Shown here piece after piece: positions 966 to 8,631 of a stretch of 64,000 bases of DNA; positions within the stretch are counted from its first letter, which is position 1, and each line of letters begins with the position of its first letter. Origin of the DNA: Chryseobacterium aquaeductus (GTDB taxonomy: Bacteria; Bacteroidota; Bacteroidia; Flavobacteriales; Weeksellaceae); assembly GCF_905175375.1 (NCBI RefSeq), contig NZ_CAJIMS010000001.1:620001-684000 (forward strand), read 5' to 3'. The position numbers and the translations under genes were made by a program. Under the pieces are notes generated by a model that was not told where the DNA came from, searched no databases, and worked only from the letters and a program-made list of their open reading frames with translations.

Positions 966-1312
966 TTGACGCTTAACCCATTTAATCAGCAAGTTGATTC
1001 TCCATTTTCATTTGTAATAAAAAATATTTAAAGAGATATATTGTACTTAAAATAAATAAATCCCTACCTGTATTTTCGACAAGCTATTTTTATGTTTTTT
1101 CGACATTCTCAAAGTCCCATCAATAAAGCGTTTCGATATTTTTGAAAACCAGATAAAAAACCATATAAATCACAAAAAAAAGACATATTAGTTACAGATT
1201 ATGAAAAAGACAATATAAGAGGGATTAAATTACAAAATTCAGTAAAAATTTATGTTTATACACGTAAATGATACGTTTATTTCGTATATTTATTTACTGA
1301 AAACTAAGGCCG
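966..1312. other. Intergenic region upstream of the LuxR regulator
   Basis: About 350 bp without a credible gene and very AT-rich. It holds two copies of TTTTCGACA at 1073-1081 and 1097-1105 (24 bp apart, same face of the helix) and, close to the start codon, the dyad elements listed separately at 1252-1287. No clear TAnnTTTG element with the right spacing was found, so the transcription start of the regulator is unresolved. Confidence 0.5.
1252..1287. promoter_or_regulatory. Candidate operator pair in the LuxR regulator promoter
   Basis: Contains TGTTTATAC (1253-1261), an exact 9-mer also present in the curli operon promoter at 6616-6624, and the interrupted palindrome ATACG-TTTATTT-CGTAT (1271-1287). 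Both lie 26-60 bp before the start codon. Similarity to the motifs before the curlin gene and the csg operon suggests autoregulation by the LuxR protein; this is inference from sequence only. Confidence 0.4.
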
Positions 1313-1960
1313 ATGAAACCTAATTTAACTATTTTTGATGAACCTCTCTTATATACGGAAGGTTTGTCTAAACTGCTTTTGCAGAACAAAATTTTTAGTT
1401 CCATAGAAATTTTTAATACTACCGAACGATTATATAATCACATTGCAGAAAATCCCCCCAAATTTCTAATGATCAGCTCAAACATTTTGATGTTGAGTGA
1501 ACTTTACAATTGTATTGATACTATAGCTTCTCAAAACAAAAATATCAAAATAATGGTCATTGGTAATTCGCATGATGTGATCGTTATCCGAAAACTTTTT
1601 AATAAAGGTATTAAAAGCTATCTTGATAAAAACAGTTGCTATGATGAGTTCATCAAATCTGTGAATGCTCTAAGTTCCGATGAAATATACATCTGTGAGT
1701 ATGCTAAGGAAATGATGATCAATTTCATCAGCAGCGAACAAGAAAAACACACCCCAAACATCAAAGAACCACTTACAAGACGCGAGTTGGAAATTCTAAA
1801 ACTCATTTGTGATGGCCACAGCAGTAAAGATATTAGTGGACAGCTCTTTATCAGCATCAACACCGTCGAAACTCATCGCAAAAGAATTCTCATGAAGCTG
1901 AATGTGAAGAATTCTGTAGGTGTTGTGAAGTATGCGATGGAAAACAACATCATTAATTAA
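1313..1960 (+). CDS. Orphan LuxR/NarL-type regulator with degenerate receiver (CsgD analogue)
   Basis: 215 residues: an N-terminal REC-like domain (about 1-125) and a LuxR HTH (about 150-210; LTRRELEILKLI ... INTVETHRKRILMKL). The receiver keeps one acidic residue of the acidic pocket (FDE, 8-10) and the switch lysine in YLDKNS, but the phosphoacceptor aspartate is replaced: the strand FLMISSN has Ser55 where Asp is expected. Activity is therefore unlikely to depend on ordinary phosphorylation. E. coli CsgD, the curli master regulator, also has a LuxR HTH behind an atypical receiver. No histidine kinase is adjacent, and the next genes are a complete curli locus on the opposite strand, ending 75 bp away. 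I infer that this protein controls curli. It may not be an orthologue of CsgD; degenerate receivers have arisen repeatedly. Confidence 0.8.
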   Translation: MKPNLTIFDEPLLYTEGLSKLLLQNKIFSSIEIFNTTERLYNHIAENPPKFLMISSNILMLSELYNCIDTIASQNKNIKIMVIGNSHDVIVIRKLFNKGIKSYLDKNSCYDEFIKSVNALSSDEIYICEYAKEMMINFISSEQEKHTPNIKEPLTRRELEILKLICDGHSSKDISGQLFISINTVETHRKRILMKLNVKNSVGVVKYAMENNIIN

Positions 1961-1971
1961 AAAAAGTTATA

Positions 1972-2020
1972 AACCAAAAAAATCAAAATCCGAAAAAGGT
2001 TTTGATTTTTTTTGGTTATT
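1972..2020. terminator. Bidirectional terminator between regulator and curli operon
   Basis: AACCAAAAAAATCAAAATCC and AGGTTTTGATTTTTTTTGGTT form a stem of about 20 bp around a short loop, with A and T runs on both sides. It separates two convergent genes and can serve both strands. Confidence 0.8.
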
Positions 2021-2035
2021 TTTTTCAAAAAAAGT

Positions 2036-3541
2036 CTATTCGTAGTCAGGCATTTCTGCGTTGTTGAACAATACAGCACGATTCAGATCAATCATCAGAT
2101 TATTTAAATCTACCACCACCACATTTCTCTGCGAAATATTGTCATTTGAAGTATTCATAAAAATTATCTGAGAATTGTTGGGTGAAAACCTTGGGTCAAG
2201 ATCATTAGTGCCGACAGGTTTGTCACTTTCTAATGTCATATCATAGGATGTATTGTTCACCAGATTATAAATAAAAATATGCGAATCTAGTTGTCTGTAA
2301 TTAGAATCCTGATACCCAGAGACATCATGTGTGTATAGCAATTTTTGTCCGTCAATAGAAAAATTAAGTCCACCTGTGGCTCCAGTTGGAGCAGCAAAAA
2401 CATTCTGAATCACATTGCCCAGCATATCGATAATGAATATTTTGGTATTATAACCACTGAAATTATTAGTCTTAACGGCTATTTTACTATTATCGTAACT
2501 CCAGTCTACTTCCGAAATGAGGCTTCCGTCTGCAGTTGTGTAAAGGAGTTGTTGCCCGGTTCCATCTTTATTAATTTTGTACAGTTTATCAAAATTTGAA
2601 TAAATAAGTGCGCTTCCACTTGTATTCCAGGAAAAATCTAATTCATCATGATTAAATCCTGCTACGGGAATCTGAGTCACTTTAAGAAGATTGGTACCAT
2701 CCGGATTTACTGTAAAAATGTGGCTTCCGCCTGCATCTGTTCTCAAAAAAGCAATCAATCCTGCGTTATTATTCTTTCTGGGTCTCCAGCTGTTGCTTGA
2801 CGAATTGGTCAATTGAAAGTTGTTTCCCAACTCGTCACTTGACATAATGACAAAATTTCCGTTTTGCTTGCGAGTATAATGATAACGATTTGCAGGAGTT
2901 GTAATAGTGGTAAATTTAAATACCGGACTCAGAACATCAGGATGAATATCGTCTGAAACTGCAACCTGCCAGAAATAACTTACCCCAAACTGCAAATTGG
3001 TGAGGGTATAGTTTTTTACCTTCAGATCATTGATCTGAATGACATCTGTATTGATGTTATTCTTTACGGTAAGTTTATAGGTGAGGCTGTCTGTAGTATC
3101 AGGATCGGTAGCATTCCAACTAAGCATTACAGAAAGTGGTTGATTTGTTGCATTATCAATCGGGCTCAGTAATTGTGGAGCACTGGGCGGAGAGTTGAGA
3201 GATTCATCATCATCCATCTCAAAAACAAGAGTGATTACTTGATTATCATTCTGAATATTTACGGCCTGAAAATTGGCAACATAACCCGTCAGTTCAGCTT
3301 TTACAGAATAATTGCCTGCGGGAATATCTTTTATTTCAAACATTCCGTCTTTATCGCTAAAAACCGTCTGTGTACTGGGTGTTGTAAATATCTTGGCATT
3401 GGCAATGGGTTCGTTGGTTCCTTTTTTGACAACTCTACCTTTTAATACACCTTTTTGCGCCAATTCTACTAAATCTTCGCTACACGATGCCAAAGAGAAC
3501 AGCAAAACCAATATTGAGAATATTTTGATATATGTTTTCAT
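2036..3541 (-). CDS. Curli-operon lipoprotein: CarboxypepD_reg-like, FnIII-like and WD40-like propeller domains
   Basis: 501 residues with a lipoprotein signal peptide (SLASC, Cys20). Then a carboxypeptidase-regulatory-like beta sandwich (about 30-110; LKGRVVKKGTNEPIANAKIF), a fibronectin type III-like domain (about 118-212; FWQVAVSDD) and a C-terminal beta-propeller of TolB/PD40 type (about 215-495) with repeats such as NPDGTNLLKVTQ and NKDGTGQQLLY. It starts 11 bp after the csgG stop and is the last gene of the curli operon. The composition suggests a surface- or periplasm-facing lipoprotein that binds another protein or a glycan, perhaps anchoring the fibre to the envelope. No E. coli curli protein looks like this, so the role is inferred from position alone. 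Confidence 0.75.
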   Translation of the reverse strand: MKTYIKIFSILVLLFSLASCSEDLVELAQKGVLKGRVVKKGTNEPIANAKIFTTPSTQTVFSDKDGMFEIKDIPAGNYSVKAELTGYVANFQAVNIQNDNQVITLVFEMDDDESLNSPPSAPQLLSPIDNATNQPLSVMLSWNATDPDTTDSLTYKLTVKNNINTDVIQINDLKVKNYTLTNLQFGVSYFWQVAVSDDIHPDVLSPVFKFTTITTPANRYHYTRKQNGNFVIMSSDELGNNFQLTNSSSNSWRPRKNNNAGLIAFLRTDAGGSHIFTVNPDGTNLLKVTQIPVAGFNHDELDFSWNTSGSALIYSNFDKLYKINKDGTGQQLLYTTADGSLISEVDWSYDNSKIAVKTNNFSGYNTKIFIIDMLGNVIQNVFAAPTGATGGLNFSIDGQKLLYTHDVSGYQDSNYRQLDSHIFIYNLVNNTSYDMTLESDKPVGTNDLDPRFSPNNSQIIFMNTSNDNISQRNVVVVDLNNLMIDLNRAVLFNNAEMPDYE

Positions 3542-3552
3542 AGCTTACGTTT

Positions 3553-4917
3553 TTACTTTTTTCCGATATAAAAATTGATTCCTAAGGCAAATCTCAATGC
3601 CTGATCTTTTCTTTTACCATTTACAAAATCTTCCCAATCATCAGTAAATCCCATATCATACTGCGAGGAAAGACGTAAACCAAGATTTTTTTGAACCAAA
3701 TACTCTAATCCACCTCCAAACTGACCTTTATATCTGGCTTTATCCGTAGAAAAGACAGTTCCTAAACCAGCATATATATAAGGTGAAAGTTTAAATTGAG
3801 GAATAATTAAATATTCAAGATTGACTTCTGTAGAAACAAATGTGCGTGAGAGGATTTTTTCGTTTTCTATGGAGAATACATTTGCATTTGCTTCAAGATT
3901 AAAATTATCTGCAAGAAAATATTTTATGCCCAACTTTCCACCAACCGTTGTTTTGGGGTTTACGTAATCTACTCTTCCTTTGTTGGCTTCAATTTGAGCA
4001 AAAACAGAAATATTCTGTCTGTTGTTGGTGGGATATTTATTTCCGACAAGACGGTTGTTGCTTATTTCCTGCTCGGCATTGTATTCGTCTACCAATTTTT
4101 GGTATTTTGATGGTGTATCAATAGCTTTTCCCCAAATCTTATCTCTAATACCTTCTACGATTAAGGATTTCACTGCTTTCTCAATAGCATCTGTAACTGC
4201 CATCTGAATTGGCTCGTTTTGAGTTACCCCGACCTCACCTTCCAATAATCTTTCTGTATCTACATATTTGAAGAAACTTCCGTTGATACTTGTAGAAAGA
4301 ATAGTTTTAGAAACATATACGGTTTTCAGAATTTCACCATTTAATGTAGAAACCGCTCTTAAATAAATGGTAATTCTATCTTGTCTGTACTGTGTAGAGG
4401 CACCAATACCGAAGTATCTGGCTCCGATACCACCAGTCATAATATTACTATCGTAAGAGATCACACCGCCCTCCAGAAGAGTTCCGGCATACAATAACGG
4501 TGGTAATGCAGGACTGCTTTTATCTACATCTTTAAGGTATTCCTGACGGGTTGATCTTATGATTTGTCTTTCGTTGAGGAGATTGGCAATATTTTCTCTT
4601 TCAATAGGTGTAAACCATCTGCTGTCTTCCAATGCTTTAATAAGGATGGTTGTAGTGCCCTGCGGAACAGCTGTACTCCAGTTATTTCCGTTTTCTGAAG
4701 GTTTATACTGACCAGTCTGATCTCTGAACTTATAGACACCAATGACAATTTTTTCTTTCGGGAGCGGAAGGTTTCTCAGCTCTGTGGTATAAGGAGTAAT
4801 CTCACCTATCATAGACTTCTCTTTCTCGGCAGGAAGACCAAGAATAGATGTACAACTTTGCAGCAAAAATACAAGCGCACTGGCAACTACGATCCTGAAT
4901 TTCGTATAGATTCTCAT
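3553..4917 (-). CDS. csgG: CsgG, curli secretion channel, with extra C-terminal barrel-like domain
   Basis: 454 residues, against about 277 in E. coli. Lipoprotein signal peptide (LLQSC), then a clear CsgG domain (about 35-275): VIGVYKFRDQTGQYKP, SRWFTPIERENIANLLNER, ARYFGIGASTQYRQDRITIYLRAVS. CsgG forms the nonameric outer-membrane pore that exports curlins. After residue about 295 there is an additional 160-residue region of alternating hydrophobic strands ending in FALGINFYIGKK, with an aromatic near the end as in outer-membrane barrel proteins (GGKLGIKYFLADNFNLEANA, LSPYIYAGLGTVFS). That tail is absent from the proteobacterial protein and looks like an 8-stranded OmpA/OprD-like barrel. 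Operon position: 29 bp after csgF and 11 bp before the lipoprotein gene. Confidence 0.93.
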   Translation of the reverse strand: MRIYTKFRIVVASALVFLLQSCTSILGLPAEKEKSMIGEITPYTTELRNLPLPKEKIVIGVYKFRDQTGQYKPSENGNNWSTAVPQGTTTILIKALEDSRWFTPIERENIANLLNERQIIRSTRQEYLKDVDKSSPALPPLLYAGTLLEGGVISYDSNIMTGGIGARYFGIGASTQYRQDRITIYLRAVSTLNGEILKTVYVSKTILSTSINGSFFKYVDTERLLEGEVGVTQNEPIQMAVTDAIEKAVKSLIVEGIRDKIWGKAIDTPSKYQKLVDEYNAEQEISNNRLVGNKYPTNNRQNISVFAQIEANKGRVDYVNPKTTVGGKLGIKYFLADNFNLEANANVFSIENEKILSRTFVSTEVNLEYLIIPQFKLSPYIYAGLGTVFSTDKARYKGQFGGGLEYLVQKNLGLRLSSQYDMGFTDDWEDFVNGKRKDQALRFALGINFYIGKK

Positions 4918-4946
4918 GGTAAGTCTTTAGTTTTAGTTTCTATTCA

Positions 4947-5354
4947 TTATTTCGGAATCACGATCTCAGATTGCTCACCTGTAACGGTATCCAAAATACT
5001 AATCATCATACCCTGACCTGTATTGGTGATTTGAAGATAAAGTGAGCCAAACATATAATTACCTGCCTGCACACCACCTGTCCCAAACTGATCTTGGAAT
5101 AATTTTCTTGATAATTCGCTTAAAATCTGCCGGTTTAAACTATCTGTAAAATTGCTTAATGAGCCTGAATTACCGGTAGCACCCGTAGTCACTTTATCAT
5201 CAAACTGGTTTTGGGCACTTGCCGAACTTAATAACCACTGATAATTGAATGTATCTCCGCCAAAGGCAGGATTTATGGGTTTATAAACGAGCTGTTGAGA
5301 TTTTGCCAGGAAAATTCCTGAAAAAAAAATCAACGTTATAAAAAAAGTTTTCAT
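4947..5354 (-). CDS. csgF: CsgF, curli assembly factor
   Basis: 135 residues counted from MKTFFITLIFF. A longer frame extends to 5405, but that would place the signal peptide internally and overlap csgE; the chosen start leaves 10 bp after the csgE stop. Signal peptide ends at AKSQQ. The mature N-terminus QLVYKPINPAFGGDTFNY, then WLLSSASAQNQ, matches the conserved CsgF head, in which NPxFGG inserts into the CsgG pore. In E. coli CsgF caps the channel and couples secretion to nucleation on the surface. Family-typical length. Confidence 0.92.
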   Translation of the reverse strand: MKTFFITLIFFSGIFLAKSQQLVYKPINPAFGGDTFNYQWLLSSASAQNQFDDKVTTGATGNSGSLSNFTDSLNRQILSELSRKLFQDQFGTGGVQAGNYMFGSLYLQITNTGQGMMISILDTVTGEQSEIVIPK

Positions 5355-5364
5355 GGTTTTAGTT

Positions 5365-6096
5365 TTAGTAGATGAATTCGTTTTTAATGAGATTCTTTCG
5401 GGCATTAAAATCTTTGATGTACCGCAAGGTGTATTCTAGCTGCTCTTTAAGATAATCTTCACTGGGATTGGTCATAAAACTATATACCAGTTTGTCATCA
5501 ATCTGTATATTGATTTGTCCGCTGGTACCTCTGGCAGGCAACTCGGTAATGGTAATTGCAGAATTGCTTTTGTCCGGAATTTGGCTGTATTGTATATAAA
5601 ACAAATCATAAAAATCTTTCCCTACTTTACTTTTTGTTTCATCAATAGTGAGCCCGCTGAGTTCGAAAGCTTCTTCTTTTTCGACTACACTCACCTTTTT
5701 ATTAAAAAAATCCTGATTTATTTCTAAACTGTCTTTAGCTATAAGTTTTTGTGTCTGCTCGTCACGTATATACAAGAATGCTTTCAAAGCGTCTCGCTTA
5801 TCCAGATTCACACTCATCTCAGACAAAGCTTTGCTCTCATTGGGATTGATAGAGAATTTCCCGCTCTGTTTATTATTAGAAAGATTTCCGCTGGCTCCTT
5901 TTTTTATTGAAATTAAAAGATAATTGAGCTCCTGATATGTTGAAGAATTGTTGGTGACTAATGCTTTAATTTTCAATTGTTTTTCGACAAAATTTTTCTC
6001 AATTTTTGCAATAATCTTTCTGTCATCCTGCCCATAAATGTTTATCGACAGGAAAACAAAAAGAAATGTATAAAATATGAGAATGAAATTTTTCAT
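5365..6096 (-). CDS. csgE: CsgE with an extra N-terminal CsgH/CsgC-like domain
   Basis: 243 residues against about 129 in E. coli. Signal peptide ends at NIYGQ. The C-terminal half (about 140-243) is CsgE: LSGLTIDETKSKVGKDFYDL, TITELPARGTSGQINIQID, then a helical tail FMTNPSEDYLKEQLEY. CsgE plugs the periplasmic mouth of CsgG and selects substrates. The N-terminal half (about 25-135) is a predicted beta sandwich (KLKIKALVTNN pattern, SGKFSINPNESKALSEM, VNLDKRDALKAFLYI) that resembles CsgH/CsgC, periplasmic proteins that stop premature amyloid formation; I recognise this only by pattern. If correct, gatekeeper and chaperone are one polypeptide here, and indeed no separate csgC/csgH gene is present. 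Ten bp follow the upstream gene. Confidence 0.85.
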   Translation of the reverse strand: MKNFILIFYTFLFVFLSINIYGQDDRKIIAKIEKNFVEKQLKIKALVTNNSSTYQELNYLLISIKKGASGNLSNNKQSGKFSINPNESKALSEMSVNLDKRDALKAFLYIRDEQTQKLIAKDSLEINQDFFNKKVSVVEKEEAFELSGLTIDETKSKVGKDFYDLFYIQYSQIPDKSNSAITITELPARGTSGQINIQIDDKLVYSFMTNPSEDYLKEQLEYTLRYIKDFNARKNLIKNEFIY

Positions 6097-6106
6097 GGTT
6101 TAAAGA

Positions 6107-6520
6107 TTAATAATTCCTCATAAAGATGGTCATATTCTCACCTTTTACATTGAGATGCAATCCTTCAGATATGCTGTTGCTTCCGGTAATATCTACCCAA
6201 TTATTGTTTCCCTCTGTAGTGATTGCAGTTTTAGATTCTTTTGACGTAAAAGCATTATTGTAATAAATACTGTTTTGATCACCAAATTGCTGCACTACAA
6301 TATTGGTTCTTGTATTGATTTGCAGATCTGCGCTGTTTTGATCGCCCAACTGTATAACCTGTGTTGAGGAAGATGAAGAAATGGGCTGCTCCAGATTTTG
6401 CAATGTAATAACATCGATAGCTGTCTGACTGTTGATACGATTCCAGTCTATCTGTTGCGAGTTTGCCAACATCGTTGAGAGAAACGCAAGGGTAATAAAT
6501 ATTTTCTCAAAGATTTTCAT
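6107..6520 (-). CDS. Minor curlin-like secreted protein (possible CsgB/nucleator role)
   Basis: 137 residues from MKIFEKIFITL; an upstream in-frame ATG at 6586 would bury the signal peptide. Signal peptide ends at LANSQQ. The mature part carries a few degenerate curlin-type units: VIQLGDQNSADLQI, VVQQFGDQNSIYY, TEGNNNWVDITGSNS, with the Q-x-G-x-x-N spacing of CsgA/CsgB. First gene of the csg operon, with its own promoter. Its size is close to E. coli CsgB (151 residues), and it sits where a nucleating minor subunit would be expected, but the repeats are too degenerate to assign csgB firmly. Confidence 0.7.
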   Translation of the reverse strand: MKIFEKIFITLAFLSTMLANSQQIDWNRINSQTAIDVITLQNLEQPISSSSSTQVIQLGDQNSADLQINTRTNIVVQQFGDQNSIYYNNAFTSKESKTAITTEGNNNWVDITGSNSISEGLHLNVKGENMTIFMRNY

Positions 6521-6532
6521 TTTTATTTTTTT

Positions 6533-6563
6533 TAAAGGTACTTGAATACAGTGCTTTACAAAA
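6533..6563 (-). promoter_or_regulatory. Promoter of the csg operon
   Basis: On the minus strand TTTTG (6559-6563), 18 bp, then TACCTTTA (6533-6540), one mismatch from TAnnTTTG. It lies 12 bp before the start codon of the first gene, so the 5' leader would be short. Confidence 0.55.
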
Positions 6564-6590
6564 CACGTTAAACAGTGACACATCAAAAAT

Positions 6591-6626
6591 CACGGTTTAC
6601 CATTACATCCTACCGTGTTTATACGG
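6591..6626. promoter_or_regulatory. Candidate curli operator upstream of the csg operon
   Basis: CACGGT (6591-6596) and ACCGTG (6612-6617) form a perfect inverted repeat with a 15-bp spacer. The second arm is also part of the dyad CCGTGTTTATACGG (6613-6626). The 18-bp block CTACCGTGTTTATACGGA recurs with 16 matches on the other strand before the curlin gene. Placed 50-95 bp upstream of the proposed -7 element, as expected for an activator site. Confidence 0.45.
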
Positions 6627-6640
6627 AGATTGTTTTAGCC

Positions 6641-6667
6641 AAAAAAGGAGAAACCGAAGTCTCTCCT
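6641..6667 (-). terminator. Terminator with UUCG tetraloop in the curli intergenic region
   Basis: On the minus strand AGGAGAGAC-TTCG-GTTTCTCCT followed by TTTTTT: a 9-bp stem (one G-T pair) with a UUCG loop. It lies between the curlin terminator and the csg promoter, so it would end a transcript that belongs to neither gene, or act as an attenuator/second terminator. Confidence 0.8.
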
Positions 6668-6715
6668 AATCTATAATTTAAATATGATGAAATTTTCTAA
6701 CGTGCTAAAGTATCC
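6641..6715 (-). ncRNA. Candidate small RNA between curlin and csg operon
   Basis: The UUCG-loop terminator at 6641-6667 is preceded on the minus strand by TACTTTAG, a near match to TAnnTTTG, with a TTG 21 bp upstream of it. This would give an RNA of about 60 nt. No open frame fits. It could instead be a second terminator for read-through from the curlin gene. Speculative. Confidence 0.25.
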
Positions 6716-6817
6716 AAATACGATTTACAATTACAAGTATTACTATCCGAGAGATAATTTTTTTAATAATTGTTTTGCTGTGTAAACAAAATTATCATTA
6801 GAAAAATCCTGCTTTGA

Positions 6818-6856
6818 AAAAAATGTATAGGAAATTTGACCTTCCTATACATTTTA
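6818..6856 (-). terminator. Terminator of the curlin gene
   Basis: AAATGTATAGGAA (from about 6820) and TTCCTATACATTT pair around an 8-nt loop; on the minus strand the hairpin ends in a T run. It starts 24 bp after the curlin stop codon and makes curlin monocistronic. Confidence 0.85.
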
Positions 6857-6879
6857 TTTGGAAGAAACTCTGTTTAAGG

Positions 6880-8394
6880 TTATTGGTTTACTACAATTGT
6901 ATTTCCATTACCTGTTTGGTTAGACATGTGATAGTTTCCGCTAGACATTTGGTTTACAGTAACTGCATTGGTATTACCATTTTGAGTCACAAATGATTCG
7001 TTGCTATTAGCATTTACTAATGCAGAACCCTGAGTGATGGTAGCTGTGTTACTGTTACCCATTTGGTAGCTTTCAGAAACATTATCATTTCCGTATTGAT
7101 TAGAAGCTAAAACATTACTGTTACCACCAGATTGCTCTCCGATAGAACTGTTGTTGTCACCATCCTGTAACATTGTAATTACATTTCTGGTTCCCATGCT
7201 GCTTGCAGTTCCGCTTTGATCTGCACTTGTATAGTTGTCATTTCCGATTTGGTCTATTTCAGCTCTGTTCCAGTTGTCACTTTGCATTACTAAGGCATCA
7301 TTGTCGTTACCATTTTGGTTAGCATCTAGTGAATTGTTATTTCCTGTTTGAGTACCTTCAGCGTTGTTTCTTAAACCTGTCTGAAATTGTCCGCCTTCAT
7401 TGCTGTTTCCTACTTGGTCTAAAGAAGCATCATTGTTGCTACCGCTTTGAGTTTGCATTGCACCGTTGAAAGTACCTCCAGATTGATTAGCAGATGCATC
7501 GTTTCCATTTCCGGTTTGAGATTGAGAGATCCAAGAAGAACCACCAGATTGTGTAGCAGAAGCGCTGTTGAAATTACCGTTTTGGTTTTGAGTCGCAGTA
7601 TGATCATTTCCAGCTTGAGTTACCGAAGCGTCATTCAAATTTCCGTCCTGGTTTTGAGTTGATGTTTGACGAACTCCTGTTTGTGCCACAGATGCATCGT
7701 TGAAATTGCCATCTTGATCTTGTGTTGCATCATGTCTTTCTCCCGTTTGAGTGGAAGTAGCATTGTTTAAGTTTCCGTCTTGTATTTGATCTAAGTCATT
7801 TAAAAATCCTACCTGAGAAGCAGTAGCATCATTTAAATTACCGTCTTGTATCTGATTAATATCGTTAGCTGTGCTGAAGACACCGCTTGGACGTGTAAAA
7901 CCTGTCTGACTTTGTGAAGCTGTAGCTGTATTTGCAATACCATCTTGATTTTGAACGATATTTGATCTCACATCGCCTCCACCTTGAGTAGCTGTAGCTT
8001 CGTTGAACCATCCATCCTGTTCTTGTCTGATTTTAGACCCAAAACTGAACTGTTGAGTCGCAGCAGCGTCATTGCTAAGACCATCCTGAATCTGAACAAC
8101 TTCTACTCCACCTGCAGAAAAACCTTGTCCCTGACTTATTGTAGCATCATTAAGACTACCCGTTTGTGTTGTAGCTGCCTTATTACGAGCACTGTTACTT
8201 CTTTGATAAACGTTTACATCATTTCCGTTTCCTGTTTGGGTAGTAACGTTTTCGTTACCGAAAGTTTGTAAACTTAGTTGTGTAACTGTAGCAGAGTTAT
8301 TATTTCCACCCTGTGTTACTGTATTGTCGCTGTTTTGTGCAAAAGCGAATCCTGCTGATAAAACAACAAATGCACCGGTTACTAATTTTTTCAT
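6880..8394 (-). CDS. Curlin repeat protein, probable major amyloid subunit
   Basis: 504 residues with signal peptide MKKLVTGAFVVLSAGFAFA. The mature protein is an almost uninterrupted run of about 20 curlin units of roughly 22 residues following Q-x-G-x-x-N-x-A-x-x-x-Q, for example IQDGNLNDATASQ, NQDGNFNDAS-type and SQTGNGNDASANQ. E. coli CsgA has five such units in 151 residues, so this subunit is more than three times longer. The most regular repeats are in the middle (about residues 180-310), where the DNA repeats too; the ends are more diverged. Exported through CsgG and polymerised on the cell surface as a biofilm matrix fibre. Transcribed alone from a good promoter, upstream of the csg operon on the same strand. 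Acidic gatekeeper-like residues (D in QDG) are frequent. Confidence 0.92.
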   Translation of the reverse strand: MKKLVTGAFVVLSAGFAFAQNSDNTVTQGGNNNSATVTQLSLQTFGNENVTTQTGNGNDVNVYQRSNSARNKAATTQTGSLNDATISQGQGFSAGGVEVVQIQDGLSNDAAATQQFSFGSKIRQEQDGWFNEATATQGGGDVRSNIVQNQDGIANTATASQSQTGFTRPSGVFSTANDINQIQDGNLNDATASQVGFLNDLDQIQDGNLNNATSTQTGERHDATQDQDGNFNDASVAQTGVRQTSTQNQDGNLNDASVTQAGNDHTATQNQNGNFNSASATQSGGSSWISQSQTGNGNDASANQSGGTFNGAMQTQSGSNNDASLDQVGNSNEGGQFQTGLRNNAEGTQTGNNNSLDANQNGNDNDALVMQSDNWNRAEIDQIGNDNYTSADQSGTASSMGTRNVITMLQDGDNNSSIGEQSGGNSNVLASNQYGNDNVSESYQMGNSNTATITQGSALVNANSNESFVTQNGNTNAVTVNQMSSGNYHMSNQTGNGNTIVVNQ

Positions 8395-8421
8395 GGTATA
8401 AAATTTTATTGGTTAGTGATA

Positions 8422-8450
8422 CAAATGTAGAACTATCCCAAACCTCAAAA
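8422..8450 (-). promoter_or_regulatory. Promoter of the curlin gene
   Basis: Minus strand TTTTG (8446-8450), 16 bp, TACATTTG (8422-8429), a full match to TAnnTTTG, 27 bp upstream of the start codon. Confidence 0.65.
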
Positions 8451-8487
8451 ACCACCATAAAAGGGTAAATTTACAATATCATTAGAT

Positions 8488-8565
8488 ACGGTTTATATTG
8501 TCACCGTTTTCAGTTTTCCACAATCATCAGTAATAGGTACTTTGGCTGTACGTATAAATACGGTA
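8488..8565. promoter_or_regulatory. Candidate curli operators upstream of the curlin gene
   Basis: Two elements: inverted repeat ACGGT (8488-8492) / ACCGT (8503-8507), and TACGTATAAATACGGTA (8549-8565), whose complement TACCGTATTTATACGTA matches the csg operon element TACCGTGTTTATACGGA at 15 of 17 positions. They lie about 60 and 130 bp upstream of the curlin -7 box and also face the divergent NUDIX gene. Confidence 0.45.
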
Positions 8566-8631
8566 GAATATTTGGCTGAAAAATATGGTTAATTAACATC
8601 TATTTCTATTCCATTTTATAAGATATATTAG

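Follow-up and report, generated by a model that had tools for sequence, protein, structure and literature searches.

Regulators with a LuxR-type helix-turn-helix (HTH) domain bind tandem half-sites as multiple dimers. VraR, LiaR, NarL and RcsB form dimers on paired half-sites and have phosphorylated receivers, and VpsT of Vibrio cholerae is a biofilm regulator of the same type. The curli master regulator of Escherichia coli, CsgD, belongs to the FixJ/LuxR family (PMC3535384). According to a 2012 survey, the Bacteroidetes genera covered all lacked csgD except Spirosoma (PMC3521004). Here we analyse a 64,000-nucleotide window from Chryseobacterium aquaeductus (C1:620001-684000 of genome G000, 3.49 Mb) in which a complete curli (type VIII secretion) gene set lies beside a LuxR-type regulator gene, and we describe an operator-like array of repeats upstream of the curli genes csgA and csgB. 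Judged from sequence comparison, this array is real, conserved and curli-specific, and a palindrome noticed earlier is one end of it. The array is probably bound by the adjacent regulator, which has a degenerate receiver domain.

A conserved repeat array upstream of csgA

We compared the regions upstream of csgA in the window and 46 relatives (47 loci; L055 was left out because its contig does not carry csgA). The relatives found by csgG include four Chryseobacterium genomes. About 125-135 bp upstream of csgA are conserved, from the palindrome down to the -7 box (TACATTTG, 8422-8429, minus strand), and no further: columns upstream of -130 hold 0.08-0.19 bits each, compared with 0.7-1.4 bits inside (35 loci with the shorter spacing defined below). 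The box was recognized by the Bacteroidota -7 consensus TAnnTTTG. The conserved stretch includes a promoter-proximal block (ATTTACCCTTTTATGGTGGT, 8451-8470, minus strand).

Direct repeats of a 15-bp unit resembling AACnGTAAACnGTGA stand 22-24 bp apart in this region. Counted from the -7 box, they lie at -86, at -64 and, more weakly, near -110. The autocorrelation at 22 bp (z 5.06) was reached by none of 1,000 column shuffles, and the best single repeat pair scored 12.6, against a maximum of 10.7 in 60 shuffles. In the window, these units lie on the minus strand at 8501-8515 (AACTGAAAACGGTGA, -86) and 8479-8493 (-64), with the weaker one placed by alignment at around 8523-8540. The upstream end is formed by the palindrome TACCGTATTTnTACGTA, found at three or fewer mismatches in 39 of the 47 loci but in only 1 of 235 shuffled sequences; the window's copy is TACCGTATTTATACGTA (8549-8566, minus strand). 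Its distance to the -7 box is 125-127 bp in 34 loci and 135-137 bp in 11, and differs in the other two (L045 and L046). For five of the 45 loci at these two distances (L049, L050, L051, L053 and L054) the match is weak, with 5-6 mismatches at the fitting position. The loci therefore form two groups, with the palindrome near -126 or -136, a step of ~10 bp or about one helical turn; the groups are set by spacing rather than by tree, and L046 was assigned by hand to the longer-spacing group. We also tried the perfect palindrome TACCGTA-N4-TACGGTA as the operator and rejected it: it is exact in 1 of 47 loci, with one mismatch in another, and so is not the consensus.

A first-pass annotation of this DNA had proposed that one partly palindromic 18-mer serves as an operator at both curli promoters. 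The two copies, CTACCGTGTTTATACGGA (6610-6627, plus strand) and CTACCGTATTTATACGTA (8549-8566, minus strand), do agree at 16 of 18 positions, with the annotated coordinates off by one base. The inverted pairs reported with them are also present (CACGGT at 6591 and ACCGTG at 6612; ACGGT at 8488 and ACCGT at 8503); we read them as half-sites that would belong to larger array units. A spacing of 50-130 bp to a -7 box, claimed for three promoters, holds at csgB (69-bp gap) and csgA (119-bp gap) and fails at the regulator promoter. The proposal of a shared operator-like element stands for the two curli promoters, where the element is confined to the csg locus as far as we searched and conserved within the genus, and the expected conservation above csg genes in relatives was seen at the csgA promoter. 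The palindrome itself is a real element, but it is only one end of a spaced array and not the whole operator.

At three or fewer mismatches the 18-mer occurs in the window at these two sites only (100 shuffles gave 0.04 sites on average and never two), a count that is partly circular because the pattern was built from the same sites. The genome-wide scan suggested with the annotation returned no further site with up to two mismatches in 3.49 Mb. Five sites with three mismatches were found, for a total of 7 matches compared with 11 for a reversed control pattern, and we therefore regard the three-mismatch sites as noise. A weak 18-mer match beside the closest LuxR paralogue (C1:981668) lies between convergent genes and was taken as chance. 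Non-circular support came from a palindrome matrix built on the 35 loci of the shorter-spacing group, to which the window does not belong; this matrix ranked the csgA site first and the csgB site fourth of 127,964 positions.

The csgB promoter

Upstream of csgB, the first gene of the csg operon, a -7 box (TACCTTTA, 6533-6540, minus strand; recognized by the same consensus) is preceded at -64 by a unit with one mismatch (AATGGTAAACCGTGA, 6590-6604, minus strand), in the same register as the csgA unit. The palindromic element lies at -87 (the site at 6610-6627, here read on the minus strand), in the register of the csgA unit at -86 and not in that of the csgA palindrome. At up to two mismatches it is found in the window and in only 5 of the 46 relatives, at the same position in each. 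Several relatives have no recognizable array at the csgB promoter. A terminator-like hairpin with a run of T lies between csgA and csgB (6641-6666, minus strand) and aligns in relatives; it was noted for the window, L011 and L052-L054. Relatives without a recognizable csgB promoter include L054, in which the gap is 59 bp. In such relatives, csgB might have to be expressed by read-through of a hairpin of this kind.

Confinement of the array to the csg locus

To rank the promoters independently of the window, we ran a csgA-region matrix from the 35 loci outside its spacing group over both strands. The csgA promoter ranked first (z 9.2) and the csgB promoter second (z 4.9) of 127,762 window positions, both with the -7 box in exact register. 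We also trained an array profile on 38 csgA promoters, the window's included; its E-values are rough. At E<1e-10 this model matched all 43 csgF-positive genomes of the genus and a csg-deletion scar in G004, and no other of 117 genomes. Given this training set, the csgA matches are largely expected by construction; nine relatives outside it still scored 77-108 bits. Across 49 relative loci, the model matched all 46 csgA promoters. Twenty-five of the 28 further rows outside scars fell in csgA-csgB gaps, which make up ~9 of 904 kb (with up to 75 bp of slack allowed at the csgB start), and came from 22 of the 46 relatives.

Neither the window's own genome nor the 18 of 26 weak non-csg matches inspected from the 117 genomes yielded a target outside the csg locus. 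In the own-genome scan, where 150 of 5,084 first-look candidates were scored, ten rows were neither csgA nor csgB; these reached at most 12.1 bits, and we list their reading frames without claiming a target. The 117-genome search used stricter filters, at which weak matches are lost. Beyond the rows at E<1e-10 and the scar in G012, it returned 35 weak rows at E<=0.02: 8 csgB promoters by position, 1 scar (G008) and 26 others. Matched sequence and reading frames were examined for 17 of these 26 and flanking genes for an eighteenth, and the remaining eight lie outside the genus. Eight of the 17 fall inside a reading frame. Four weak rows represent one gene across four species, and another four come from a single gene pair that has a hairpin; csgF-negative species occur in each set. 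The hairpin CCACTTTTATAGTGG is conserved between ribokinase-like and hydrolase-like genes (L140, L141, L142 and L144) and is similar to part of the array; of these four species, three are csgF-negative.

The first-pass annotation had counted a third copy of the element, TGTTTATAC (1253-1261, plus strand), at the promoter of the regulator gene. We do not consider it part of the element. TGTTTATAC occurs twice in the window, once inside the csgB site, compared with ~0.9 expected, and a genome as large as this one should hold ~47 occurrences (a second-order Markov estimate, not a genome count). Of 45 loci, the window included, only 2 (the window and L008) have the 8-mer GTTTATAC at a distance of up to 110 bp from the start of the regulator gene. 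The site is 23 bp from TATATTTA (1285), which places it probably inside the core promoter, and the array model scores the regulator promoter at 5.3 bits, the level of noise. The supposed copy is thus at chance level, and on present evidence we rejected the regulator promoter as a member of the regulon.

The regulator is inherited with the array

The candidate binder is a LuxR/FixJ-type protein of 215 amino acids (1313-1960, plus strand) with a degenerate receiver and a C-terminal GerE HTH (Pfam GerE, 70.4 bits; cut-off 23.5). Counting matches at E<=1e-30, we found its gene in 45 of 117 genomes: 43 of 43 csgF-positive genomes of the genus and 2 of 73 csgF-negative genomes. A forty-fourth csgF genome, G096, is 68% complete and lacks it. 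The two csgF-negative carriers, G008 and G012, have scars of a csg-operon deletion, with no csg gene from NUDIX to luxR and weak promoter fragments of 14.8 and 32.8 bits, respectively. At the scar in G004, the csgA array (65.6 bits) survives next to a C-terminal luxR remnant, and the 18 kb examined there hold no csg gene. The three scars beside the NUDIX gene (L087, L088 and L133) retain array fragments and are natural controls. In G053 the regulator is on a separate contig and is still kept. Thirteen residues of the HTH (LFISINTVETHRK) are identical in 21 of 21 aligned orthologues, which otherwise are 56-88% identical overall to the window's regulator. The 12 csgF-positive genomes found outside the genus lack both the array, their best match to it (E 0.0063) lying away from csgF, and an orthologue-level match to the regulator (best 127.5 bits, compared with 392.5).

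Weighing the possible explanations

We think it likely that a single kind of array stands at csgA and csgB and that the adjacent regulator binds it and co-activates both promoters. Several observations weigh against this. The units have drifted in the window, where the one at -86 is good (one mismatch), the one at -64 has four mismatches and the one at -110 has more than four, and the exact half-site and strand sense of the array are uncertain. The csgB array is detected in only 22 of 46 relatives. When the array model is run on the window's own genome, the csgB promoter comes second, but with only 14.8 bits (E 0.06) and with a match on the wrong strand; its match on the same strand ranks about eighth (E 1.4). 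With the core promoter excluded, csgB drops out of the top six in the matrix ranking, so part of its signal is core promoter. The regulator's own promoter lacks the array. Linked genes also co-vary by descent, which confounds the co-occurrence of regulator and csg genes except in G053.

The array could instead be a genuine operator for another factor, a NarL/LuxR-type paralogue or a global regulator, with the linked LuxR protein acting indirectly or elsewhere. The six further LuxR-type matches in the genome (E<=1e-12) and the regulator promoter without an array would fit such a factor, but the linked gene accompanies csgF throughout the genus and is retained when unlinked, its HTH residues are invariant, and csgF-positive genomes outside the genus lack array and near-orthologue together; we judge this explanation rather unlikely.

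Ancient duplication of a promoter, leaving the two with a core promoter in common, might account for most of the likeness between csgA and csgB; conservation would then stem from the core promoter and from DNA bending, and not from specific operators. The strong conservation of the -7 and leader region of csgA agrees with this, as does the contribution of sequence near the -7 box to the csgB match. Conservation at csgA nevertheless extends to 126-137 bp upstream, the spacing being fixed in 45 of the 47 loci, the repeats are statistically significant, and the csgB palindrome has a register different from that of csgA, which simple duplication does not explain; we hold this account to be very improbable. 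Chance similarity of AT-rich promoters, for which the commonness of short motifs such as the 9-mer speaks, is ruled out for the two curli sites, to which we give it almost no credence, by the shuffle, genome-scan, fixed-spacing, gap-enrichment and matrix results, and is accepted for the site at the regulator promoter.

If the adjacent regulator is the binder, the arrangement suggests how it may work. At csgA, several regulator dimers, lined up along the same face of the helix, would occupy the 15-bp units at -86 and -64, about two helical turns apart, the weaker one near -110 and the palindrome at the upstream end; at csgB, they would occupy the -64 unit together with, in the window and five relatives, the palindrome at -87. 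The receiver lacks the usual phospho-acceptor, and binding would probably be cooperative. We infer activation rather than repression because the sites lie upstream of the core promoter. Both promoters would be activated together, and curlin and the secretion machinery would be produced simultaneously. A broader proposal, which we put forward tentatively and with slightly less than even confidence, is a Bacteroidota curli switch distinct from CsgD: a phosphorylation-independent LuxR-type protein that would assemble cooperatively on a helically phased array present at two promoters and no others. These would form a dedicated single-locus 'regulon' in which array length and phasing would set the output of curlin and exporter together.

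Genes of the curli locus

The gene order is rng, luxR (plus strand), the csg operon (minus strand), the large curlin gene csgA and a NUDIX gene. CsgA-type repeats, CsgE, CsgF and CsgG all score above their Pfam cut-offs, and a scan of the window's own genome gave no other match to the curlin-repeat model at E<=0.001. All csg genes are on the minus strand. CsgA (6880-8394; Pfam Curlin_rpt, 97 bits) has 504 amino acids; curlin length is variable, at 272 amino acids in most of L042-L051 and L059-L084 and at most 598 (L011 and L053). The csgB-like gene (6107-6520) is named from its position; its start was corrected by dropping a longer TTG frame, its N terminus is conserved in relatives, and the protein has no match in Pfam or NCBIfam. 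It is followed by csgE (5365-6096; identified by profile matches), csgF (4947-5354; Pfam CsgF, 131 bits) and csgG (3553-4917; Pfam CsgG, 223 bits). The N-terminal stretch of CsgE is CsgC/CsgH-like (CsgH model, 35.1 bits for a cut-off of 35; Pfam CsgC, 23.4 bits, under the cut-off of 25) and is possibly a fused amyloid-inhibitor chaperone. CsgG has a C-terminal extension of ~190 amino acids with matches resembling outer-membrane barrels. The final gene of the operon (2036-3541) encodes a carboxypeptidase-regulatory-like domain with propeller-like repeats and is conserved and syntenic in relatives; we know of no curli role for such a protein.

Comparison with known regulators

Among the papers listed, judged by titles and abstract openings and by passages of PMC3521004, PMC3535384 and PMC4838910, none was seen to describe this operator or this regulator. 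With csgD lacking in all the surveyed Bacteroidetes genera but Spirosoma (PMC3521004), the protein is a candidate for switching curli on. Besides this candidate, the analysis yields an operator map at the level of single bases and spacing that varies naturally by about one helical turn; each of these is directly testable.

An AlphaFold2 (AF2) model of the regulator has a response-regulator fold (mean pLDDT 85, pTM 0.63), and its N-terminal domain is receiver-like in the model and in its response-regulator matches. By sequence and by fold, VraR, LiaR, NarL and RcsB rank among the solved structures that match it best; full-length superpositions on fold matches, which include VraR, LiaR, RcsB and VpsT, are loose (root-mean-square deviation mostly 5-15). 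Unlike VraR, LiaR, NarL and RcsB, with their phosphorylated receivers, the regulator has no phospho-accepting Asp where receiver strand 3 ends. That strand (51-55, with the phospho-acceptor position assigned from the AF2 model) ends in Ser; at least 90% of the 21 orthologues have S55 and S56, and none has Asp there. With Ser in place of Asp where the phospho-acceptor is expected, control by phosphorylation is unlikely. No Pfam family for the autoinducer-binding domain of quorum-sensing LuxR proteins matched the regulator at E<=0.001. VpsT (3kln/3klo) is likewise a LuxR-type protein with a receiver-like domain and matches by sequence and fold, but only 20-21% of residues are identical across the fold match.

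The CsgD equivalog model NF007505 matches residues 68-211 weakly, at 50.6 bits for a cut-off of 250, and other models score higher (MctR, 87.8 bits). The csgD gene is part of a csgDEFG operon next to csgBAC, whereas the regulator gene stands alone, in convergent orientation to the csg operon. Like CsgD, it combines a receiver-like domain with a LuxR-type HTH, is encoded beside the curli genes and is predicted to control the csg promoters.

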